A DNA stretch of 61,640 nt from a virus, in IMG/VR virus record IMGVR_UViG_3300045747_000506, positions 1 to 61,640 of that record, one strand, 5' to 3'. Of the stretch, positions 37,872-57,192 are shown piece by piece. Both the position numbers and the translations under genes were made by a program. The notes under the pieces are model-generated. The model was given only the letters and a program-made list of their open reading frames with translations, did no database searches and was not told the DNA's origin. The stretch's first letter is position 1. Each line of letters opens with the position of its first letter.

Positions 37872-37923
37872 TATATAGCTTTATGCTATACTTATATTGT
37901 GGCTTAACAAATTGGAGTTTTAA

Positions 37924-38022
37924 ATGATTAAAAAGATTACTGAAATAATGGTTTCTATCAATGTTGCTCTAGGAATTTTCTTTGTAGTACTTGTAGCATT
38001 AAAGACTATTGGAACTATCTAG
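37924..38022 (+). CDS. Tiny single-pass membrane protein (32 aa)
   Basis: ATG at 37924 has GGAG at 6-nt spacing. The product MIKKITEIMV...LGIFFVVLVALKTIGTI is almost entirely one hydrophobic helix with a basic N-terminus. Such peptides can act in superinfection exclusion or lysis timing; here there is no direct evidence. Confidence 0.55.
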   Translation: MIKKITEIMVSINVALGIFFVVLVALKTIGTI

Positions 38023-38941
38023 AACTATACGCAACTATTGCTAACTTTCGTTCAAGAAATTCAAACAATTAGCAACTATCTAAAGCAAAACCTGAGCAAA
38101 ATACAACCTAAACCCCCTGAAATTATTAGTAAAATACATAAAACCTAGTAATTACGGGGCTTTAGGACATCGAATTATAGCTATAAATAATGAATTCCCC
38201 GACGGTGCTGGACCCCTACAAGTTTGTCTAGCTATCCCCCCGTATTCATTGAGGAATTTCTTCGTTTGATTTATTAATGCTACTAAGTCAGGGTAGGACT
38301 ACATAGTCATGTCTAATGAGCTCTAATAGCTTTTAAATATAAGTATTGGATATAAAATAGGTCGTTGAATTACAATGAGTTTAGTCACTCAAACAAAATA
38401 AAGTATAACAATATCAAGTAGTTATAGCACCTCCTCTCTAATGGCCCTTAAACGATTCGCTTTAAAAAGATAAGTAATTGATATTGAGTAAAAAATATAA
38501 CTACTAGATTGCTGATAGGCCGACGCTATTTAAATCAATCAATCAATCAATATAACTTTTTTCTTTAATGGGTAGTAGTTAACTAGATACATCTAACAAT
38601 GCATAGGTACTATTATCATCTAACTAAATTGATCATTATAAGGGGAAGTCGTTAAAATGATCATTATAGTAGTAACCATAATTAATAAGTATATAGTGAG
38701 ACTCTCCTGGCCATTGATCGAATAACGCCTATAAATATAGTCAAATAGTATGTATTAGCTTCTAATTTTCACCTTTAAGACTTGGAAGAGTGAAACTATT
38801 TCATTATCTAAGTATCTATTAACATAGTAAATAATAGAAATATATTAGAACAATATATAATTATCTAATCTATACTAAAAAGCTATGGTATTATCTCTAT
38901 AGTAAAGGAAATAAGGATTCTTTAATAAAGGAGATAAAAAA
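38023..38941 (+). other. Long noncoding stretch before the AAA+/VWA operon
   Basis: Over 900 bp without a credible gene. It contains a GC-rich island (about 38090-38235) with complementary CGGGG (38154-38158) and CCCCG that could pair, a short AATC tandem repeat (about 38534-38553), and two copies of TGATCATTATA around 38630-38676. It might hold a leader RNA or a regulatory RNA for the downstream operon. I find no tRNA. Confidence 0.4.
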
Positions 38942-39169
38942 ATGAAACTAGAGAGATTAATTTATGAACTAAATTGCAAAAAGACATGTTTAGAAAAAGC
39001 CATTATAGAGCAAAAACAACACGCTATAGATCAGTTTACTAAGGAAGTTGAACTATATACTAGTGCGATAGCTAACTATAACAATACTTTAAGTGCTAAT
39101 GAAATTGAAATTGTTAAAAATACTATCAAGGCACTAACTAACCTACTTAATAAAGGAGAAAAAAAATGA
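38942..39169 (+). CDS. Small helical protein, first gene of the AAA+/VWA operon
   Basis: A 75-aa protein with AAAGGAG before the ATG. It is nearly all helix (MKLERLIYELNCKKTCLEKAII...) and probably a coiled coil. Its stop overlaps the next start as ATGA. Unknown function. Confidence 0.6.
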   Translation: MKLERLIYELNCKKTCLEKAIIEQKQHAIDQFTKEVELYTSAIANYNNTLSANEIEIVKNTIKALTNLLNKGEKK

Positions 39170-39303
39170 AACTTTATAAAATATGGTCAATGGAACTAAA
39201 TAGATTTACAGGCCATAACTTTAAAACAGAAATTGAGGCCTTAGAATTTTTGCATACTCTAGATAAACGAATTCAATACTTTATTATCGAAACAATTAAT
39301 TAA
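39166..39303 (+). CDS. Hypothetical protein (45 aa)
   Basis: An ATG in an ATGA overlap, with AAAGGAG upstream, begins MKLYKIWSMELNRFTGHNF and ends FIIETIN. Strong ribosome site and tight packing support translation. It looks like a small beta-alpha fold (KTEIEALEFLHTLDKR). No family known. Confidence 0.55.
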   Translation: MKLYKIWSMELNRFTGHNFKTEIEALEFLHTLDKRIQYFIIETIN

Positions 39304-39316
39304 TTAGGAGAAAAAA

Positions 39317-39454
39317 ATGAAAAACGAGAGAGTAATTCACATTAGAGTTTTATCTTCAAAAAAAGAATTAAGAGAGGTTGATTTAGGATTCTTTTACATA
39401 AATTTAGCTATTATGAGTACTTTAGTTGCCTCAATTTTAACAATGCTTAAATAA
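39317..39454 (+). CDS. Small membrane protein (45 aa)
   Basis: ATG at 39317 follows TTAGGAG. MKNERVIHIRVLSSKKELREVD is polar, then a hydrophobic helix (GFFYINLAIMSTLVASILTML) ends the protein. A tail-anchored topology is likely. It lies just before the AAA+ gene. Confidence 0.55.
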   Translation: MKNERVIHIRVLSSKKELREVDLGFFYINLAIMSTLVASILTMLK

Positions 39455-39475
39455 TTATTATTAAAGGAGATTTTT

Positions 39476-40417
39476 ATGGGTGATTCAAAAAAAGTTTTAG
39501 AGTTAATTGGTTCGGGCCTTGTACCTCACTTAGTAGGACCAAGGGGAGAGGGTAAGACTACTTATGTTAAAGATTTAGCTAAATTACTTAATAAAGAACT
39601 AACAATTTTAAATTTATCGGCCATTGAGGCAACCGACTTTTGCGGCCTTCCTTTTATAGAAAATAATCTAACAAAATATGCCCGACCTCAATTTCTAAAT
39701 AGTGATTTTCTATTTCTAGATGAGATTGACCGAGTGAGAGATAGTTCAGTAAAATCAAGTCTTTTATCTCTTTTAGTTGACCGTAAAATTCAAGGCCATG
39801 AATTAAAAGAAAATTGTATTATTATATCGGCCGGTAATGGCCAGGTAGAAGGCTATGACACCACTGATTTTGATATAGCCTTAGAAGATCGACTATTAAT
39901 TAAAGATTTTACTTACTCAATTTCTGAAAAGTTGGGCTATTTAAATGCTAAATATCCTCATAACACTTTTATTAAATTTTTAGAAATTAAACCTGAAATT
40001 TTAAGTGAATTTTCAGGCCGTAGAATTGAAGCTTTTTTAAAAGTAAATAATGTTCAATGTGAAATATTTTTTAACAAAGAAGTTGCTAGAATGTATAAGC
40101 ATTTTATAGAGGAAACAATGGTTACGTTAGATGATATTAAAAAGGGAGTTTACGACTTTAATATTTTATCGACTATTAGTAAATCAAGTTTAGTTATCGA
40201 CATAGTAAACGACTTTTACCGACTTGATACTAAAGACGCAAAAAATATAAATAAATTTATTAATCTTTTACGGGCCGAAGAAAAATCTAGTTATTTTACT
40301 AAACTTAAAAAATTATGTTTAGAAAATCCTGAAAATTTTACTGAAAAATCTAATGAGTTAAATGAGGCCGGTCTATTTAAAGGCCAAAAAGATTTTTTAA
40401 CCGAACTAACTAAGTAG
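39476..40417 (+). CDS. MoxR/CobS-like AAA+ ATPase
   Basis: The 313-aa protein has Walker A GPRGEGKTT (21-29), Walker B LFLDEIDR (79-86), sensor 1 IISAGN (116-121) and an arginine in ALEDRL (R139). This is the MoxR/CobS branch of AAA+ proteins that remodel targets together with VWA-domain partners. A VWA gene lies two genes downstream. Many phages encode CobS-like ATPases whose role is unclear. The AGGAG site and spacing point to operon expression. Confidence 0.85.
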   Translation: MGDSKKVLELIGSGLVPHLVGPRGEGKTTYVKDLAKLLNKELTILNLSAIEATDFCGLPFIENNLTKYARPQFLNSDFLFLDEIDRVRDSSVKSSLLSLLVDRKIQGHELKENCIIISAGNGQVEGYDTTDFDIALEDRLLIKDFTYSISEKLGYLNAKYPHNTFIKFLEIKPEILSEFSGRRIEAFLKVNNVQCEIFFNKEVARMYKHFIEETMVTLDDIKKGVYDFNILSTISKSSLVIDIVNDFYRLDTKDAKNINKFINLLRAEEKSSYFTKLKKLCLENPENFTEKSNELNEAGLFKGQKDFLTELTK

Positions 40418-40429
40418 GAGATTAATTTT

Positions 40430-41182
40430 ATGAGTAAGAATAAAATAATGACTAATATTGATAGCATGTTTAATCATTTTGGCCATAGCTTATTTATAGA
40501 CTATAAAAATAGATACGTTTTAGCAGAATTACAAAGCTATGGAAATAATCAACTTAATAATTTAAAGAGTAACTTAAATATAATTAAAAAAATTAAAGGC
40601 TTTAAAATTGATATATTTATTTCCGAAGATCACTTGAAATATTATATCTCATCCCCTACTTATGGCCGCGATACTATTGAATTCTTATTAAATGATGTAA
40701 TTTCTACTTATACGCTTTTTACGGGAAAATCAGATTTTGAAAATAGTATTCATACTATTAATTTTTCTAAATTAAAAAAAGTTACTAAAGACGAATTAAA
40801 CGTATTAAGTGAGATTAATAAAGAGAAAAAGAAAATTAATAAAATGTTAAAGACTTATTTAATCACGGGCCATAAAGCCAATATTAAATTAAAGCATTTA
40901 GATTTAAATAAGGCCCCTAAAATTATCATTTCAGCGTCGGATTGTTTTTTAGCTATAAAAAAAGTTGATCTAAAAGATTTAAAGAAATTTTACACTATTA
41001 ATAACTATCATAATACTAAAGAACTTAGAATGGATCAATTCGTCTATACTAAAGAGGCCGTTAAAAGTATCACTTTAGGCGATATTGAAAAGCTAAAAGA
41101 GTTAGGATTTACTTTCGATAATAAATGTACAATTTACAGTAAATTAGTTGCGACTAAGGTTTTAACTAATTTAGGAGATTAA
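40430..41182 (+). CDS. Hypothetical protein between AAA+ and VWA genes
   Basis: A 250-aa Lys/Asn/Ile-rich protein with a central alpha/beta part (FKIDIFISEDHLKYYISSPTYGRDTIEF). It ends LVATKVLTNLGD, where the last codons TTA GGA GAT TAA double as the ribosome site for the next gene. Its fixed place between the ATPase and VWA genes suggests it is an adaptor or substrate of that complex. No motif recognised. Confidence 0.65.
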   Translation: MSKNKIMTNIDSMFNHFGHSLFIDYKNRYVLAELQSYGNNQLNNLKSNLNIIKKIKGFKIDIFISEDHLKYYISSPTYGRDTIEFLLNDVISTYTLFTGKSDFENSIHTINFSKLKKVTKDELNVLSEINKEKKKINKMLKTYLITGHKANIKLKHLDLNKAPKIIISASDCFLAIKKVDLKDLKKFYTINNYHNTKELRMDQFVYTKEAVKSITLGDIEKLKELGFTFDNKCTIYSKLVATKVLTNLGD

Positions 41183-41185
41183 TTT

Positions 41186-42340
41186 ATGAAAATATATAAA
41201 GCATTAGTAGAAATAGAAAAGAATTGTCCAGAAATATTTTATTTAATTAGGCATTGTAAAATTGAGGTAACTGATAAAATATCGTCGGCCAGTATTGGTA
41301 AAACAAAATCAGGATTTATAATGAAGATAAATGATCAATGGGTAAATAATTTTGATCAATTCAACCTATGTGCAATTATTGAACATGAGTTACTTCATTT
41401 AGTTTTATCTCATTGCTCTGAAATTTCTAGTTTTAGCAATCCTAAAATGGCCAATGTAGCACAAGATTTAATCATAAATGACATTGGCAACTATTTTCAA
41501 AATGAATCTAAATTAAATAGTGAACTACAGGCCGGTTGTTTTTTACATAAATTTAATAAGCAGTATAAAACTGAATTTAATTCTAATCAAAATACATCAC
41601 TAGAAATTTATAATTTTCTTTTAAAACAATCTGGAGAAAAACAAGAAAAAAGTAAATCATTCGATGAAGGATTTAAAGATGATAGCTCTAATGAGGATAG
41701 TGAAGGCCGGGCCGAAGAAAATGCAGAAATTGATTTAGAGGAAATTTTAAGTCAATCCGAACTATCAGAAATTGTTAAAAAATACTCTAAAGATTCTAAA
41801 GATCTTAAAAAGTTTTTTAGTGAAATTGAAAAAAGAAATAAAGATAAAAAGATTAAAAAAGCTATTGAGCAGTTTTTTAACTCTCATAAAGCTGAATTTA
41901 AAAAATCAATGAAGAAAAAAAATAAAAGATTTTCTTTTTTGCCTTATGGCCGTGTAAAAGATTCTAAACAAAAAATTTTAATAGCTTTAGACGTTAGTGG
42001 AAGTATGCTATGCCCTGACGATTTAGAAAAATTAAAAATGTCAGTAAATAGTGCAACTAGTAATGGCTTTCAGGTTGATTTAATTTTTGGAGATACTAAA
42101 AAAATTGGAGATTTTAAAGACATAAAGAATAATTTTAATTTTGAAGAAAATATTAAAGGTGGGGGCGGTACTGATTTAAAATTTATTTTTGATGAAAAAC
42201 TAAAAGACTACGATTGTACTGTAATTGTAACCGATGGGGAATTTTATCAGGGAGATATCCCGACTAAATTAAAAAGAGATTTACTATTTTTAAATACAAC
42301 ACTAAAAGAAATTTCAGGATTTAAAAACTTATTTATTTAA
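41186..42340 (+). CDS. DUF2201-like protein: HExxH domain plus VWA domain
   Basis: A 384-aa protein. Residues 60-77 (LCAIIEHELLHLVLSHC) hold a zinc-peptidase HExxH (H67-E-L-L-H71). An acidic linker (155-190) follows. The C-terminus is a VWA domain with a MIDAS: D269-V-S271-G-S273, T329 in GGGGTD, D350 in VTDG. This is the DUF2201/VWA-like pairing that accompanies MoxR ATPases. It probably binds a metal-dependent ligand and feeds it to the AAA+ ring. Whether the HExxH is catalytic is unknown. Confidence 0.85.
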   Translation: MKIYKALVEIEKNCPEIFYLIRHCKIEVTDKISSASIGKTKSGFIMKINDQWVNNFDQFNLCAIIEHELLHLVLSHCSEISSFSNPKMANVAQDLIINDIGNYFQNESKLNSELQAGCFLHKFNKQYKTEFNSNQNTSLEIYNFLLKQSGEKQEKSKSFDEGFKDDSSNEDSEGRAEENAEIDLEEILSQSELSEIVKKYSKDSKDLKKFFSEIEKRNKDKKIKKAIEQFFNSHKAEFKKSMKKKNKRFSFLPYGRVKDSKQKILIALDVSGSMLCPDDLEKLKMSVNSATSNGFQVDLIFGDTKKIGDFKDIKNNFNFEENIKGGGGTDLKFIFDEKLKDYDCTVIVTDGEFYQGDIPTKLKRDLLFLNTTLKEISGFKNLFI

Positions 42341-42354
42341 AAAGGAGATATTTT

Positions 42355-43053
42355 ATGTGGGCCTCAAGTTGTAATTTAACTAAAAGAAGAGACGGTCATT
42401 TTACGAATTCGACTAAAACATGCGAGATTTTCGAAAATTGTGCTATGTCATACGCTGAAAAAATAGCGATAATTGATCATGAAAAACAGTATATTTTATT
42501 TAACGATCATATATTTAGTGTAACTACTAATCATCATCAAACTGCTACTTATTTTCATTTAGTAAAAAAATACCCTAATTATAAAAAATATTCATTTGAT
42601 AGTTATTCAATAAATGATTTTAATTTTAAAGACGCTAGGACATTAGGAAATGGGCTAATTTTTTCAGATTCACTAATTAGATTTATCTCTGAACAATACC
42701 CTACTAAAGATAATGAAGATTTTTTACATGAGTTACAATGGAAAAACATTTATAGAAGTGTAGAAAATGCAATTTATAAATCTAATAGAGATAAAGAAAA
42801 AAGATTAAATAAAAAGATTGAAAAATTAGATTTTAAAAGTATAGCCGATCTAGAAAAAGCCCTTGGAAAGAATACCTATGTAAAAATTAGAGGATATTAT
42901 TTAGAAAATGATGGCAATAAAAAGAACTTATTTTCTAAATATGTTTTAGATTACATTGATAGGTTTAACATAGTTGATAGATATAAACCTGATTTTATAA
43001 ATGTATTAAAAACTAATATTACTATTAATTCACTAGGCACATTAGGAGATTAA
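42355..43053 (+). CDS. Hypothetical protein of the AAA+/VWA operon
   Basis: A 232-aa protein with AAAGGAG upstream. The N-terminus is Cys-rich (MWASSCNLTKRRDG...CEIFENCAMS). Residues 45-75 contain ILFNDHIFSVTTNHHQ, and the C-terminal half is helical and basic. It ends TLGD, again encoded by the ribosome site of the next gene. Family unknown; possibly a partner of the VWA protein. Confidence 0.6.
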   Translation: MWASSCNLTKRRDGHFTNSTKTCEIFENCAMSYAEKIAIIDHEKQYILFNDHIFSVTTNHHQTATYFHLVKKYPNYKKYSFDSYSINDFNFKDARTLGNGLIFSDSLIRFISEQYPTKDNEDFLHELQWKNIYRSVENAIYKSNRDKEKRLNKKIEKLDFKSIADLEKALGKNTYVKIRGYYLENDGNKKNLFSKYVLDYIDRFNIVDRYKPDFINVLKTNITINSLGTLGD

Positions 43054-43057
43054 TAAA

Positions 43058-43267
43058 ATGAAAATGTTAAAATTTAGTGAAATATTCCCTGAAAAATGTA
43101 TTAAAGAATTGTTAAAAGTTAAAGATAAAAAGTGTAAAAATTTTACTCCGATAATTGAGAAATATTTAACTGAAATAAATTCTAAAACTAATCAGGAAAA
43201 TGATTTAACTTATTTAGGTTACATGGCCGAGTACTTTTTAAAATTAGGAGGCGAAAATGGAAAATGA
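43058..43267 (+). CDS. Hypothetical protein (69 aa)
   Basis: Small helical protein (MKMLKFSEIFPEKCIKELL...) with TTAGGAG upstream. Its 3-prime end carries TTAGGAGGCG, the ribosome site of the next gene, which it overlaps by 11 nt. No family recognised. Confidence 0.55.
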   Translation: MKMLKFSEIFPEKCIKELLKVKDKKCKNFTPIIEKYLTEINSKTNQENDLTYLGYMAEYFLKLGGENGK

Positions 43268-43454
43268 AAATAAATATAAAAAATCCAGAATTGGTAGGCC
43301 TGAAGAAATGGCCACTATATCAGCCTATGTACCGAAAAGTTTAGTAAAATTTATTAGAGATAATGAAATAAATTTTTCTTTTTTTGTGAGAGATAAATTA
43401 GATACTTTAATAAAAGAACATGTAGAGAAAATGAAACAATTTAATAAAGAGTGA
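43257..43454 (+). CDS. Ribbon-helix-helix-like DNA-binding protein
   Basis: A 65-aa protein with RIGRPEEMATISAYVPKSLVKFIRDNEINFSFFVRDKLDTLI. A short beta strand followed by two helices fits the Arc/CopG type. It might autoregulate this operon. Good ribosome site (AGGAGG) inside the preceding gene. Confidence 0.6.
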   Translation: MENENKYKKSRIGRPEEMATISAYVPKSLVKFIRDNEINFSFFVRDKLDTLIKEHVEKMKQFNKE

Positions 43455-43458
43455 TTTT

Positions 43459-43719
43459 ATGATTTTAGAAATAAAAGAAAAAATTAAATCATTAGATAAA
43501 AAAGAAAAATTCATTCCTATAGGGAATTTTAAATTTCCTGTTAGGCCTATTAAGGCCCTTTTAAAATTGTTAAATTCTAAAGAAAAAATAAAATGTAATA
43601 TTTTACACGAAGGCCAGATATTAAAAATAGTATGGGGAGATAATAGAGGGTATATAAATTTTAAATGCGAGTATTATAACTATGAACATACTGATTTATT
43701 TAAAACATTAGGAGATTAA
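43459..43719 (+). CDS. Hypothetical protein (86 aa)
   Basis: Basic protein starting MILEIKEKIKSLDKKEKFIPIGNFKFPVRPIKALLKLL, ending DLFKTLGD. Beta strands and a helix are likely. The final codons encode the next ribosome site. Function unknown. Confidence 0.55.
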   Translation: MILEIKEKIKSLDKKEKFIPIGNFKFPVRPIKALLKLLNSKEKIKCNILHEGQILKIVWGDNRGYINFKCEYYNYEHTDLFKTLGD

Positions 43720-43722
43720 AAA

Positions 43723-43983
43723 ATGAATGATCAATTGAAAAACACTTGTCTTAAATTAGGCCTTGAAAAAAGACTAGATAATAACATTAAAAGGGTAGAA
43801 TTTAAATTTAACGAGTTTCAAAATAGCGAAAATGGAGTTATGGCCAGTGATTTAAATTTTTTAGAAGGTTTTATTAAAGCTATAAACGAGGAAAATGAAG
43901 AAATTAAAAAAGAGCTAGCCGTTATTAGTACCTTTAATAAATTAGGCGATAGTAATTTTACCATTGACGATATACCCTTTTAA
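43723..43983 (+). CDS. Small protein with an SSB-type C-terminal tip
   Basis: An 86-aa, mostly helical protein (MNDQLKNTCLKLGLEKRLDNN...) ending GDSNFTIDDIPF-stop. The last residues match the acidic-hydrophobic tip (DDIPF) by which bacterial SSB recruits partner proteins, yet the body has no sign of an OB fold and is too short for SSB. It may compete with SSB for host proteins or bring a phage factor to replication forks. Last gene of the operon, before a terminator. Confidence 0.6.
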   Translation: MNDQLKNTCLKLGLEKRLDNNIKRVEFKFNEFQNSENGVMASDLNFLEGFIKAINEENEEIKKELAVISTFNKLGDSNFTIDDIPF

Positions 43984-44008
43984 TCTTTAAATCTATCAAT
44001 TGAACGAT

Positions 44009-44034
44009 TAGGGCCTCTAAATGGGGCCTTTTTT
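44009..44034 (+). terminator. Terminator of the plus-strand operon
   Basis: GGCCTC-TAAAT-GGGGCC (one G-U pair) followed by TTTTTT, 26 nt after the last stop. Clear rho-independent form in the plus direction. Confidence 0.8.
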
Positions 44035-44602
44035 ATACTTTGTAATTAGTTCACCCTAATAAAATAAATCAAAAAACTATTTCTATTATTTTTCTAACAA
44101 TTTTATTATTTAAGTAGGTGTCTATAAATATCTATTTTTTAAAGAGATTTTTTGGCCTATTTAAATGCCTTTAAATCACTTAAAAAAGAAAATAGTTCAT
44201 TAGAACGATTATTTTTATAAAGAGTATTAAAGGAGGTTACAATCGATTTTGAAATTTTTAGATTTTTTGGCTTCTCAATATGCCTTTAAATCAGTTTTTA
44301 TTTCTACCCTAGCCTATAGGCCATGAATAATTATTCGATTTAAAGTCAAAAATTTCTCTTAAGAAACGTACTTTTTTACCGTCAATTTTACCTCTGGCCC
44401 GTCAAAGTTCAAATGAAATCCATTTTCTGGCCAGGAAAATTTTTTACAAAATTTCCAGATTTTTTTATTTTAGAAAACTCTCCAAAAATTTAAGCTTTTT
44501 GGAGATAGGTGCATAAAAATTAGCAACAATTTCTACAGAAATATTTGAAATAATTTCTAGGAATTTTGCATCAATTTGTGGGTAAAATATTTTAAGAATT
44601 GT

Positions 44603-44721
44603 GGTGGAATATTGGTGGATTATAGGTGGAATATTGGTGGAAAATGTAGGTAAGTTATGGTGGGAATATGGAAGAAATGTAGCGGAAACTTGGTGGAATA
44701 TTGGCGGTAAAGTTGCGGTAA
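44603..44721 (+). repeat. GGTGGAATATTGGTGG repeat cluster
   Basis: Copies of GGTGGAATATTGG(T/C)GG start at 44603, 44625 and 44692, with a degenerate copy at 44659. Spacings are 22, 34 and 33 bp, close to whole helical turns. Two GCGGTAA units 11 bp apart follow (44704, 44715). Phased repeats of this kind are typical of initiator-binding sites. Confidence 0.7.
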
Positions 44722-44731
44722 GTTATACTAA

Positions 44732-44785
44732 CTTCTAGTATATAATTGCACCAACTTCTAGTTAATAGTTGCACTAGCTTCTAGT
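44732..44785 (+). repeat. Three 23-bp iterons with CTTCTAGT core
   Basis: CTTCTAGT occurs at 44732, 44755 and 44778, exactly 23 bp apart. The first two units also share AACTTCTAGT...TTGCAC. This looks like a plasmid-type iteron array adjoining the previous repeat cluster. Confidence 0.7.
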
Positions 44786-44886
44786 AAAAAACGGTAGATA
44801 TTAGGATTATATAGTTAGACTATTAGAAAAATATGGCAGGTGGGGGACACTTTTCTAGCGTGACCCTCCTTTTTTACCCTACCCCC

Positions 44887-44940
44887 CTATTTAAGAGTAT
44901 ACAGAATTATTGCTAATGAAATTATGGCTGAAATTATCAT
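44887..44940 (-). CDS. Possible 17-aa membrane peptide
   Basis: ATG at 44940 directly follows the stop of the gene before it. The product MIISAIISLAIILYTLK is a bare hydrophobic helix. Very short, so it may be chance, but placement in a chain of overlapping genes is suggestive. Confidence 0.3.
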   Translation of the reverse strand: MIISAIISLAIILYTLK

Positions 44941-45039
44941 TTATTTCATTTTCCTATAGACTGCAATTAAAAAACCAACGCTAATTAATTGGGCAATTAT
45001 TGACAACAATTTAAGAATTAGTGCTATGTCTTTATTCAT
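44941..45039 (-). CDS. Tiny membrane protein (32 aa)
   Basis: ATG at 45039 forms an ATGA overlap with the preceding stop. MNKDIALILKLLSIIAQLISVGFLIAVYRKMK is one hydrophobic helix with a basic tail. Unknown role. Confidence 0.5.
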   Translation of the reverse strand: MNKDIALILKLLSIIAQLISVGFLIAVYRKMK

Positions 45040-46296: not shown

Positions 46297-46418
46297 ATCA
46301 GAAACTTGCTTTCTTTTATGGCTAGGTTAATATTGCAAGTATTATATTCACGCATGCTTAAGGCATAGTTTTCAAAACTATACCTATTTACCCAAAATTC
46401 TTTTCTAATTGTTTTCAC
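46293..46418 (-). CDS. Hypothetical protein (41 aa), GTG start
   Basis: GTG at 46418 overlaps the receiver-domain stop (GTGA) and has GGAGG 7 nt upstream. Product KTIRKEFWVNRYSFENYALS... is polar. The ribosome site is excellent for such a short frame. Confidence 0.5.
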   Translation of the reverse strand: MKTIRKEFWVNRYSFENYALSMREYNTCNINLAIKESKFLM

Positions 46419-46750
46419 TTTAAAACCTCCGCGATTTGTTCAATATCAAAAGGCTTGCTTAGTATTCCATCGTATAAGCTTCTATCAAACCTTCCTGTAT
46501 CACCTGAAAATCGGTAGCACTTAATCCCAATAGGTTTTAACACACTTGCAAGTAAATCTCCTTTACCCTCTAGTCCATCTATAAATGCGTGAGTAACCTT
46601 ATTAGTCTTGGCCAATGCTTCGGGAACATCGCTTGCAAGCTGAATTGATATGCAAACATTAATATTTAAGTTCATAATTAAATCTTGCATAATATCTAAA
46701 ATCTCTGGCTCGTCGTCCACGATTAATAAACTTATTTTTACTTCACTCAT
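46415..46750 (-). CDS. Stand-alone receiver (REC) domain protein 1
   Basis: The 111-aa protein is a bare response-regulator receiver. Acidic pair D12-D13 lies in LLIVDDEPEIL, phospho-acceptor D58 in HAFIDGLEG, S82 in FSGD, and K99 in LSKPF. No output domain is attached. It could act as a phosphate sink or decoy for a host histidine kinase. A second such protein lies at 50488. It is embedded in the tiny-gene operon with ATGA/GTGA overlaps. Confidence 0.85.
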   Translation of the reverse strand: MSEVKISLLIVDDEPEILDIMQDLIMNLNINVCISIQLASDVPEALAKTNKVTHAFIDGLEGKGDLLASVLKPIGIKCYRFSGDTGRFDRSLYDGILSKPFDIEQIAEVLK

Positions 46751-47790: not shown

Positions 47791-47980
47791 CCTACATTGC
47801 ACATGAACTGCACATGAGATTTTAAGCGATTTTAGGAGTTAAATAGTTGGAATTATAAGAGTATAGATAGAAAAGGGGCCTCCTGCAAAGCCTCCATCTC
47901 TTCCGTAACATGCTGTAATTATTGGATATTTTTACAGCTTTTTGATCCTTGCACATGAGTTGCACATAGGATTGCACATC
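47791..47980. other. attP-like region with integrase arm-type repeats
   Basis: Five direct GCACAT repeats flank about 135 bp: two at 47799 and 47810, three at 47951, 47962 and 47974, spaced 11-12 bp, consensus TTGCACATG. The right set abuts the integrase stop codon. Between the sets lies CTGTAA-13 nt-TTACAG (about 47914-47938), a candidate core. This is the layout of arm sites around a phage attachment core. Confidence 0.65.
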
Positions 47981-49338
47981 TACTCCCGAACTAAATGTTC
48001 ACTTTCCTTCCAATTTGCTCCTAAATTCTGTTTATATTTTTTAGCATAGTGATCCTTCATAGTTTTCATATCCCCACCATAGAGCTCAACAAGAATTGAA
48101 TCGGCAACACCATTTTGAAACAGTGCCGACAATGTAGAATTTCTCGTACCTCTGTGTAGGTCAACAAACTTAGAAAGCTTCTTCTGCATAATTAATTTTT
48201 TAGCACTCTTTGACCATTCTTGATAAAGAGCATTTTTACCTAATATCTCTCCACTCTTTCCTTTGAATACTAATTCTTTATTATTCAAACTTGGAGTAAG
48301 TCCCATTAACATTTCATAAAGGCCTGGGAAAAAGTCGTACTTTAATGAACTATCTGGACTACTTTTTAGCCCACCTAATTCTTCAGAATCAACTGCCCCC
48401 TTCCCATCGGAAATATGTCTGCTAAAAGTTATTTCTCTTTTCTTGAAATTTATATCACCCCACCTTAAGCAAATAACCTCAGACTTTCTTCGTGTGTAGT
48501 TTGCCAAGATTGTAATAGCAATTCGTATTTCTTTTTTATCGATATTGTTTATGACTAAGTTTCTTTCTTCTAAGGTATAGAAGTCAGCCGCCTTAAATTT
48601 TTTGGATTTAATTTTCTTAGGAAATTCTGGAGTATATTTTGTAAACCCTTCTATTTCGGCCCAGCTAAATATAGGTCCTAACTCTTTTATAATTTCTGTT
48701 TTGATAGAATCTGAAAGATTAACTCTTTTAGAAAATCTATTAACATATTTGTAGCTTAGTAATTGTTTACTTAAAACTTGGTAGCTTAGTTCTGAAAAAG
48801 AATATTCCCCAAAAATTGGGATCATATAAAGTCTGACTACTCTTTCTTTTTTAGCATACCCTCCTGGAGTTAGCTTATCAGAAAAAGAATTACCGACCCT
48901 ATCTTTTTGATATTCTAGATATTGGTACATGCAGTTCTTAATAAGGAGGGAATTTCTCTGAGACTTATTCCCAATTGTTCTTGGGTCGAAATTGTTTCCA
49001 TCTTTAGCGAATTTATCTTTAATAAATTCACAGAAACTATCTGCTCTAGATGCAGTATCTAATCTTTTATCGGTGTCATCAGTAGTTTTTTGAATTAGCT
49101 GTATAGAGTTAGTACCTATAATAGGTGTATTAAAACTAACCCTAAAAAGATTGGGAGTACTACCACATGAAATACATCTAGGTATTTCATTAATATACTC
49201 CCTACTTTTTTTCTTCTTAAATTTCATTCCATTACAATCAACACACTTGGCCCTAGTGGCAGGACTAATATAAGGCTTCATAGCTTTCCCCCTTCGCAAT
49301 TTTCTTTTTTGCTCGGGTGATATTAAATCTACGTCCAT
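47980..49338 (-). CDS. int: Tyrosine recombinase (phage integrase)
   Basis: A 452-aa protein. An N-terminal zinc ribbon (C32-x2-C35, C55-x2-C58) is followed by a core-binding SAM-like domain (about 90-240), then the catalytic domain. That domain has Arg in ANYTRRKSEVICLRWGD, HRGTRNS (H395/R399) and Tyr in MKDHY (Y431). The usual HxxR and GH motifs are altered (RGTR, YGGD). It would insert and excise the phage at att sites, making this a temperate phage. Ribosome site AGGA upstream. Confidence 0.88.
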   Translation of the reverse strand: MDVDLISPEQKRKLRRGKAMKPYISPATRAKCVDCNGMKFKKKKSREYINEIPRCISCGSTPNLFRVSFNTPIIGTNSIQLIQKTTDDTDKRLDTASRADSFCEFIKDKFAKDGNNFDPRTIGNKSQRNSLLIKNCMYQYLEYQKDRVGNSFSDKLTPGGYAKKERVVRLYMIPIFGEYSFSELSYQVLSKQLLSYKYVNRFSKRVNLSDSIKTEIIKELGPIFSWAEIEGFTKYTPEFPKKIKSKKFKAADFYTLEERNLVINNIDKKEIRIAITILANYTRRKSEVICLRWGDINFKKREITFSRHISDGKGAVDSEELGGLKSSPDSSLKYDFFPGLYEMLMGLTPSLNNKELVFKGKSGEILGKNALYQEWSKSAKKLIMQKKLSKFVDLHRGTRNSTLSALFQNGVADSILVELYGGDMKTMKDHYAKKYKQNLGANWKESEHLVRE

Positions 49339-54859: not shown

Positions 54860-55168
54860 TTAGTCATCAGTTACTACGTGATTAAATATGTATGCGTAAT
54901 CGATGAATTCACCAAATATAGTGTTTCTTTTTAAAGTTTTTAATTTGAACACACCCTGTGAAACTTTATTCCCCTTGGAAGGTTTATCCTCGTCTACTAA
55001 AATTCTTACAAACTCATCAGTATATTCGTCCACCTCTACAGGGATGATTGCCTCATTTGGAGAAATCGTTCCTTCTATTGGAACTTCATGAAATGTTCTA
55101 TTCATGTCATGTTCTGCATCTTCAAGGTTGATATAAAATTTGCAGAGAACGTCTCTTACTTCTTTCAT
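54860..55168 (-). CDS. Hypothetical protein of the replication block
   Basis: A 102-aa beta-rich protein (MKEVRDVLCKFYINLEDAEHDMN...), overlapping the polymerase stop by 4 nt. A 7-bp hairpin GATGACT/AGTCATC (54849-54868) spans its stop codon. Possibly a polymerase partner. No family recognised. Confidence 0.5.
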   Translation of the reverse strand: MKEVRDVLCKFYINLEDAEHDMNRTFHEVPIEGTISPNEAIIPVEVDEYTDEFVRILVDEDKPSKGNKVSQGVFKLKTLKRNTIFGEFIDYAYIFNHVVTDD

Positions 55169-57192
55169 AGATAGTCATCCTCGATACGATTTTCAAAATA
55201 TTTTTTGAATTGGTTGAACTCATTTACTGAGCGATCATCTACGTAAATATCTGTTACAGCTACTTCAACTCCATTGGGAGTAATTATTGTTGAGTCTTTT
55301 TGATAATCAGGACTCCAACTAAATAGATCCATTTTTATTTTAGATGCAGTTTCTTTTAGTTCTTCTGGAAAATAAAACATGAAAGCTTCTTTCATTATTT
55401 TTAAAAACGCATCTAGTACTTTAAAATCTCCAGAATCGTATTCGATATAAAGAGCATCATGTAATGTAACGATTGTTTCTAATCCAGCTTCTTCTGCCAT
55501 CTCAACTGCTTTACGCATAATAGATGCCCCAAAACCTTGAATGTTAAAATTTCCTGAGCTTCTTTCGTTATCGTTATCTCCAAATAGATACCATCCGCAT
55601 GGAAGCTTTAATTTACTTTCTGTTTTGTATTTAGCAGCTAACTTTATTTGATTTCCCCTGAACTCAGGGTAAGAAGCATAAAATTTATCGATTAATATCT
55701 GGGCCTGAGTCTCTGTAAATTCTTCTCCAGTTTCTTCAGATAGTTTTCTGGATAGTCCCTTTGCAGTTTGCATATAAGAAATTGAAAGAGTAACAGCTTT
55801 AAATATGTTTCTTTCTTTCTTATATTGTTCCCTTGCACCATCCATAGGTACTGCCTTAGCTAGTTTTGCGAAGTATAAATAAACATCTCCAGATAAGTAT
55901 GCATCAATCATGTTTTTACAATTACTAGTTAGAGCAGAAATAAAAAATTCTTCAGACCCGTAATCTATAGATGCAATAGCTCTACCTTTTTGTGGAGAAC
56001 ATAGAGATCTCATCCACGCTGGCTTTAAAAATAAAAAAGAAGTTGATCCAGGTTGAGATCTAGAACCAATAGACCCATAAGGATTAAAATACGGTCTAAC
56101 TCTTTTGTCAGATCCAACTGCACCCCAAAAATTCTTTTTATTCTTACTGGCACTAGGTACAAATCCATTTAAGTTTTGCTTCAACTTTAAATAACGTACC
56201 ATCTGCGCCCCAAAATTATCTTTTGGGTATTCATGTTTGAAGTCGTAAAAGTTTGTCCAAGCATCTAACGATAAAGACAAATCACCATTATCAGTCTCCA
56301 TCCATTTTTTAGTATCTACATTTTTAATTAACCACTCTTTAATGTTTCTAGTATTCATTGAGAATCTTCTAGTTTTTCTTTCGTATCTGAATGGTTTTAT
56401 TTCTGGGAATAGTTCGTTAATTTCTCTCTGGCACTCATCTAATAAAGGGCCAACTGAGGATGAAAAGTTTTTAGTCTTTTGAAAATCTATTGGATATCCG
56501 CGAGATTCCATCTTAGCAGTTAGGGCAGCATACTTACCCCTAAGTAACATTTCTTTTTCCAGCATTTCAAGATTACATCTTTTACCTAATGCAATTTTAA
56601 ATTGATTTATTATCTCGCTGTAAATTTTAGGAAGGTGAATAACATCTTCTGTACAGTATTCTTGAACTAATTTTTTCTCTTCTTCTGTAAATGATTCTGG
56701 ATTGGAGATAATTAAATCTCTCATTATATCTTTATGTTCTGTATCTCTAACCTGGCCAGTTAGTTTAAAAGTAGCTTCAGCTAAACTATGAGTTGGCCTA
56801 AAACCATTAATTGAGTCTTCTTCAGTTCTTTGCCATTTTGGAGGAGGTTTTTTAGTCTTTTTAATTTGCCCGTTAACTAGTTGATCACCATAACTTAAAT
56901 TCTTATTATGGTTTGTTAGGCATCTATACTCTAGAAACCCATCTACCCATTTAAAACTCACTGGATCTAAACCTAATGCCATAAACGATCTAGATTCAGC
57001 AGTTGCCATATAGCCGAAATAAATTTCATTAGAGTTTTTATTTAAGTAGCTGGCCAATTCCATTTGCATAAATGGGTCATTGTGTAGCCACCATTCTAAA
57101 GTCTCACCAGTTTTGTCGTCGAAAGTAGTACAGCAAACCAGCTTAACTACTGGCTCCACTACTTCTGTAAACTCAAAATCTGTGAAGATCAT
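55165..57192 (-). CDS. DNA polymerase, family A
   Basis: A 675-aa enzyme. The 3-5 exonuclease has D5-x-E7 in IFTDFEFTE and a later CTEDVIHLPKIYSEI. The polymerase part has motif A IDYGSEEFF (near 408), motif B KKERNIFKAVTLSISYMQTAKGL (near 455-480) and motif C LHDALY (near 575). It copies the phage genome. It has no 5-3 exonuclease domain, as usual for phage family A enzymes. Divergent from a plus-strand HNH operon. Confidence 0.9.
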   Translation of the reverse strand: MIFTDFEFTEVVEPVVKLVCCTTFDDKTGETLEWWLHNDPFMQMELASYLNKNSNEIYFGYMATAESRSFMALGLDPVSFKWVDGFLEYRCLTNHNKNLSYGDQLVNGQIKKTKKPPPKWQRTEEDSINGFRPTHSLAEATFKLTGQVRDTEHKDIMRDLIISNPESFTEEEKKLVQEYCTEDVIHLPKIYSEIINQFKIALGKRCNLEMLEKEMLLRGKYAALTAKMESRGYPIDFQKTKNFSSSVGPLLDECQREINELFPEIKPFRYERKTRRFSMNTRNIKEWLIKNVDTKKWMETDNGDLSLSLDAWTNFYDFKHEYPKDNFGAQMVRYLKLKQNLNGFVPSASKNKKNFWGAVGSDKRVRPYFNPYGSIGSRSQPGSTSFLFLKPAWMRSLCSPQKGRAIASIDYGSEEFFISALTSNCKNMIDAYLSGDVYLYFAKLAKAVPMDGAREQYKKERNIFKAVTLSISYMQTAKGLSRKLSEETGEEFTETQAQILIDKFYASYPEFRGNQIKLAAKYKTESKLKLPCGWYLFGDNDNERSSGNFNIQGFGASIMRKAVEMAEEAGLETIVTLHDALYIEYDSGDFKVLDAFLKIMKEAFMFYFPEELKETASKIKMDLFSWSPDYQKDSTIITPNGVEVAVTDIYVDDRSVNEFNQFKKYFENRIEDDYL

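Follow-up and report, generated by a model that had tools for sequence, protein, structure and literature searches.

In cellular systems such as CbbQ/CbbO, NorQ/NorD, RavA/ViaA and midasin, an AAA+ motor is paired with a partner that carries a metal ion-dependent adhesion site (MIDAS). The clients of cellular MoxR-VWA systems are host enzymes or ribosome precursors, and their VWA partners lack a DUF2201-type zincin domain (established knowledge; PMC7159879). A pair that does combine a zincin with the VWA domain is already known in phages: N4 gp24 and gp25 (PHROG 1297 and PHROG 1314) are listed among the core genes of N4-like phages (PMC7650795, PMC4193335) and called middle transcripts (PMC4193335), and Iyer et al. 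(2021) described a MoxR ATPase with a metallopeptidase-vWA partner in jumbo phages, proposing a role in virion assembly (PMC7824862). Here we analyze a new and very divergent member of this pair, encoded within an operon at positions 38942-43983 of the IMG/VR virus record IMGVR_UViG_3300045747_000506. The full record (positions 1-61,640; 61,640 nucleotides, nt) is referred to below as the window.

The operon consists of 11 open reading frames (ORFs) on the + strand, spaced by -11 to +21 nt, and its coordinates and gene order stand as an earlier note on this DNA gave them. AGGAG-type Shine-Dalgarno sites lie 10-14 nt 5' of 10 of the 11 ORFs, the one starting at 43459 being the exception, against a background of 15 such sites for the 95 ATGs of the operon region. 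The more AT-rich composition and the separate terminator described earlier are both borne out: the operon genes have a GC content of 0.23-0.30 compared with 0.351 +/- 0.019 for the other genes of the window, and a terminator-like hairpin follows the last operon stop. Tail fibre J, tape measure and TerL, the structural genes that were identified, are on the - strand, opposite to the operon, and there are no sizeable ORFs in the approximately 1 kb on either side of it (37872-38941 and 43984-45030). The central features, with protein lengths in amino acids (aa), are as follows.

39476-40417, + strand: MoxR-type AAA+ ATPase, 313 aa, identified by PHROG 1297, AAA_5 and conserved residues; Shine-Dalgarno site present.
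40430-41182, + strand: 250-aa orphan protein between the ATPase and VWA genes, an ORF with a Shine-Dalgarno site, in the slot of a DUF3150-like protein elsewhere.
41186-42340, + strand: zincin (HExxH) and VWA (MIDAS) protein, 384 aa, of the N4 gp25/PHROG 1314 family, identified by PHROG 1314 and conserved residues.
44010-44030, + strand: terminator-like hairpin AGGGCCTCTAAATGGGGCCTT followed by the T-run TTTTATACTT, 3' of the last operon stop (z score -2.54 for the 62-nt stretch).

Profile searches of the operon proteins placed the ATPase and the VWA protein in families; the 250-aa protein, a 232-aa protein and the small ORFs gave no significant match. The ATPase belongs to PHROG 1297 (E 7e-29) and exceeds the Pfam cut-offs for AAA_5 (E 3.7e-10) and AAA (E 1.7e-8), in agreement with its earlier description as MoxR-type. 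Its Walker A (GPRGEGKT), Walker B (LFLDE), sensor-1 (N121) and Arg finger (R139) residues are intact, and the Walker A lysine, the sensor asparagine and the Arg finger are invariant in 84 relatives. Among chains of the PDB, its profile matches include the remodelling motors midasin, CbbQ, NorQ and CobS. A phylogenetic tree groups the window ATPase with that of Rhodothermus phage RM378, a placement rendered uninformative by a support of 38 and very long branches, and a single-protein viral scan of IMG/VR returned no match beyond RM378.

The VWA protein matches PHROG 1314 over nearly its full length (E 1.7e-34, residues 5-369) and combines an N-terminal zincin motif, HELLHLVLSH (H67, E68, H71 and H76), with a C-terminal VWA domain in which the MIDAS is complete (D269/S271/S273/T329/D350). 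These residues are nearly invariant: among 112 relatives, no HExxH residue is kept in fewer than 109 and no MIDAS residue in fewer than 111. The earlier designation of this protein as DUF2201-like with HExxH and an intact MIDAS is fair for the residues, while Pfam membership does not follow, because DUF2201 (E 0.025) and DUF2201_N (E 1.1e-3) fall below their cut-offs (the two scores being 19.1 bits against 23.2 and 15.1 against 26.4), as does PhageMetallopep (E 0.016). PHROG 1314 carries the label "HNH endonuclease", seen on its members RM378 p139, N4 gp25 and SP-076. This label looks wrong, since only 2 of 113 members contain an HNH/HDH string and conservation falls on the zincin and MIDAS residues; it is likely a propagated annotation error. 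A single-protein viral scan of IMG/VR with the VWA protein likewise found nothing beyond RM378, nor did viral scans with small alignments.

The two genes are in the same orientation, ATPase then VWA, with one gene between them. They are directly adjacent in RM378, S-TIM54 and Schitoviridae, and lie within a few genes of each other in phiFa and CRP-7. An IMG/VR scan at the DNA level for the KGGGGTD signature recovered at least 120 loci, nearly all of which, among the matches listed, encode the VWA protein. Where at least 1.8 kb of upstream DNA was available (76 loci among the matches listed), the ATPase was found upstream of the VWA gene and on the same strand in 74, within 150 nt in 49 of them. 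The arrangement extends to bacterial genomes: a PHROG-profile search of 398 Pseudomonadota genomes detected the VWA family in 10 (E <=1e-30), each with an ATPase frame directly upstream, although a single-protein search of the same genomes gave nothing at E 1e-4. No other evidence here speaks as strongly for the two predicted proteins working together as this near-obligate co-encoding. With a conserved pair and intact catalytic and MIDAS residues, the earlier proposal of a MoxR-VWA remodelling machine is well supported as a prediction from sequence.

Several IMG/VR loci encode one protein of approximately 260-305 aa between the ATPase and VWA genes, on the same strand, and in six of them (L126, L150, L194, L197, L200 and L214) these intervening proteins are clearly homologous. 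One matches Pfam DUF3150 at E 4.5e-4, under the Pfam cut-off. A profile of this DUF3150-like family identified the protein in 14 viral loci among the matches listed (the six above with L191, L166, L216, L199, L160, L189, L209 and L123). In every case its gene shares the strand of the module, where it stands between the ATPase and VWA genes, immediately before the ATPase gene or behind the VWA gene. The presence of such a putative third protein alongside the ATPase-VWA module in a subset of phages is a new observation. The window shares the three-gene layout, whereas its own middle protein is not detectably DUF3150-like: the 250-aa protein has no relatives in phages, the PDB, Pfam or PHROGs, its AlphaFold model (made without an alignment) is unusable (predicted local distance difference test score, pLDDT, 37.6), and its earlier description as a linker found no support. 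It may be a lineage-specific adaptor occupying the DUF3150-like slot.

Among the described systems, N4 gp24/gp25, a core pair of Schitoviridae, resembles the window in protein families, gene order, strand, intact Walker, MIDAS and HExxH residues, and a place outside the late cluster. The window phage is however a siphophage rather than a podophage, and adds the 250-aa orphan between the pair, an AT-rich unit, seven small ORFs and the 232-aa orphan; identity to the Schitoviridae member SP-076 is only 18% for the VWA protein and 25% for the ATPase. The pair of the group 2.2 jumbo phages (PMC7824862) has the same architecture, an N-terminal metallopeptidase fused to vWA with a MoxR ATPase partner, whereas the window is a 61.6-kb record in which the genomic position of the operon speaks against the role in virion assembly put forward for those phages. 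RM378 p138/p139 are adjacent ATPase and zincin-VWA genes, and p139 is the top VWA-domain match in the phage collection (38% over 108 aa); RM378 differs in having no intervening gene, other neighbours, and an HExxH motif whose first histidine is not kept.

On balance, we lean towards the operon encoding an ATP-driven protein-remodelling machine of the MoxR-VWA type, made early or midway through infection and apart from the late genes, whose client would probably be a host or early-phage complex rather than the virion. The mechanism is suggested by established knowledge of such machines together with the intact residues. The ATPase would form a ring, the MIDAS metal of the VWA protein would hold an acidic residue of the ATPase or of the client, and the zincin domain would bind or cut that client. 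The 250-aa protein may act as the adaptor in the DUF3150-like slot, after which the ATPase ring would strip or unfold the client, probably a transcription, replication or nucleotide-metabolism complex of the host or early phage. Early or middle expression fits because the operon sits outside the late genes. Gene context favours this function over virion assembly here, in N4, where the neighbours of gp24/gp25 include RNA polymerase, dCTP deaminase, rII and helicase genes, and in IMG/VR contigs, where neighbours of the pair include exonuclease, thymidylate synthase and QueE. Several points weigh against the proposal of an early or middle machine. Expression timing in this phage is read from position alone, promoter-like matches are no more frequent than in shuffled sequences, and no client of the pair has been identified. 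The IMG/VR locus sample is dominated by one lineage. The 250-aa protein was also tried as a DUF3150-like protein, giving an hhalign probability of 0.1% with 156 of 200 shuffles scoring at least as high; homology is therefore not established, despite similar position and length. A recurrent IMG/VR neighbour of the pair, finally, matches a "virion structural protein" family.

The last of these points also bears on virion assembly, in which the MoxR-VWA pair would act as chaperone and co-chaperone and the zincin would process structural proteins, as suggested for jumbo phages of group 2.2 and in line with p618/p892 of Acidianus two-tailed virus, taken as an analogy. This role was proposed explicitly for the same metallopeptidase-vWA architecture (PMC7824862), and in roseophage RPP1 some structural proteins are encoded near the gp24/25 homologues (PMC4193335). 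We nonetheless regard it as rather unlikely for the window, where the operon has a terminator of its own, differs in composition and lies on the other strand from the structural genes identified; N4 gp24/25 are middle genes (PMC4193335), and the annotated neighbours of the pair elsewhere are mostly concerned with DNA or nucleotide metabolism. A metal-cofactor insertion machine resembling CobST (cobaltochelatase), acting on a metalloenzyme, would account for CobS among the PDB chains and for a weak match of the ATPase to the CobS-type phage family PHROG 249 (E 3e-4). The PHROG 1297 match is far better, and no operon partner matches CobT or CobN in Pfam or NCBIfam, so that membership in the CobST system is not supported and this role seems highly improbable.

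The operon might alternatively be an AT-rich, self-contained cargo unit with which a host defence complex is inactivated or, on expression from a lysogen, other phages are excluded. Its composition, opposite orientation and orphan small genes are in keeping with such a cassette, and ternary MoxR-vWA systems of bacteria, in which the third protein varies, have been proposed as conflict systems (PMC7159879). The best PADLOC match is however to PDC-S01, at only 22 bits and on the generic ATPase domain, with none on the VWA protein. The third component of known ternary conflict systems was likewise not detected: no VMAP, iSTAND, FtsH or beta-propeller domain was found with Pfam, NCBIfam or PADLOC, although these libraries may lack a VMAP model and the 250- and 232-aa proteins are unclassified. 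The temperate nature of the phage is itself uncertain. Lytic N4-like phages have the pair among their core genes (PMC4193335, PMC7650795), suggesting that its function is a general one in phages. With no convincing defence-family match, the specific counter-defence or host-remodelling role raised in the earlier note found no support; counter-defence is one possible option among several, this analysis yielded no positive evidence for it, and we consider a cassette of this kind doubtful. Similarly doubtful is a ternary remodelling system built on a conserved MoxR/zincin-VWA engine, in which the third protein (DUF3150-like in some phages, here the 250-aa orphan) would evolve fast and serve as an exchangeable client adaptor, the engine in this phage targeting a host complex, for instance a defence or transcription assembly.

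The remaining operon genes encode mostly small proteins.

38942-39169, + strand: 75-aa protein, first operon gene, an ORF with the Shine-Dalgarno site AAAGGAGATAAAAAAATG; no significant Pfam or PHROG profile match.
39166-39303, + strand: 45-aa ORF with a 4-nt overlap with the preceding stop and a Shine-Dalgarno site; no relatives.
39317-39454, + strand: 45-aa ORF with a C-terminal hydrophobic stretch by eye and a Shine-Dalgarno site; no relatives.
42355-43053, + strand: 232-aa orphan ORF; no significant profile match.
43058-43267, + strand: 69-aa ORF with a Shine-Dalgarno site; no relatives.
43257-43454, + strand: 65-aa ORF with a Shine-Dalgarno site, ribbon-helix-helix-like by eye only; no profile or PDB match.
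43459-43719, + strand: 86-aa ORF without a clear Shine-Dalgarno site; no relatives.
43723-43983, + strand: 86-aa ORF with a Shine-Dalgarno site, last operon gene; no relatives.

The 65-aa protein had been called a ribbon-helix-helix protein, which the searches do not sustain, as no CopG/Arc-type match was found in Pfam, PHROGs or PDB sequences. The 232-aa protein has an N-terminal SY..A..FSVTT..H stretch that marginally resembles a widespread small phage family ("FSY-TPVA...YSxTTSxH"). Membership in this family was rejected as marginal, with 10-12 of 200 shuffles (5-6%) scoring as well or better, and the AlphaFold model of the protein, made without an alignment, is unusable (pLDDT 36.2). Several operon junctions (40417-43723) read TTAGGAGATTAA..ATG, such that the upstream proteins end in LGD and the last codons of one gene serve also as the Shine-Dalgarno site of the next.

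The nearly ORF-free stretch of approximately 1 kb directly 5' of the operon (37872-38941) contains short repeats, has no Rfam match, and may be a regulatory or replication region. Two iteron-like arrays lie in the convergent non-coding stretch 3' of the operon, one of 11-bp phased TGGTGGAATAT units in five places (44602-44707) and one of three ACTTCTAGT units at 23-bp spacing (44721-44791), which are possibly an origin, operator or attachment region. The tetranucleotide GGCC is in excess over the whole window (156 seen against approximately 72 expected by a Markov estimate), most strongly at 38900-44000; the operon, at 26% GC, has 32 copies against the 1.4 predicted from base composition alone. 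No such excess is found in a phage of Silvanigrella aquatica (46 against 65 expected).

Scans with the VWA protein, the ATPase and TerL found no close relatives of this phage in IMG/VR or the genome collection. The only match of the TerL viral scan was a 100% identical 8.8-kb fragment, and a TerL-alignment scan of genome contigs reached at best 37% identity spread over many hosts, so that no host can be assigned from TerL. The DNA polymerase (55165-57192) is closest to that of the Silvanigrella aquatica phage (Bdellovibrionota; 29.7% over 527 aa, E 1e-50, the next best being 7e-7), hinting at a possible Bdellovibrionota host. This phage shares only the DNA polymerase with the window and has no ATPase-VWA pair. 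As for the temperate lifestyle claimed earlier, a divergent tyrosine-recombinase match (PHROG 1, E 1.7e-11) and a Cro/C1-type helix-turn-helix protein make lysogeny plausible, while by eye box II of the recombinase shows no standard HxxR. This box in the integrase-like protein (47980-49338) reads VDLHRGTR; the protein has a cysteine-rich N-terminus, and its activity is uncertain. A small - strand protein (46415-46750) bears a weak likeness to response-regulator receiver domains (Pfam E 6.5e-4, under the cut-off).

The ATPase and zincin-VWA pair belongs to the core genes of N4-like phages and is common in IMG/VR, while PHROGs label its VWA half "HNH endonuclease". The divergent, isolated gene unit of this phage, together with the pattern of a DUF3150-like third protein, may offer handles for finding the target of the machine.

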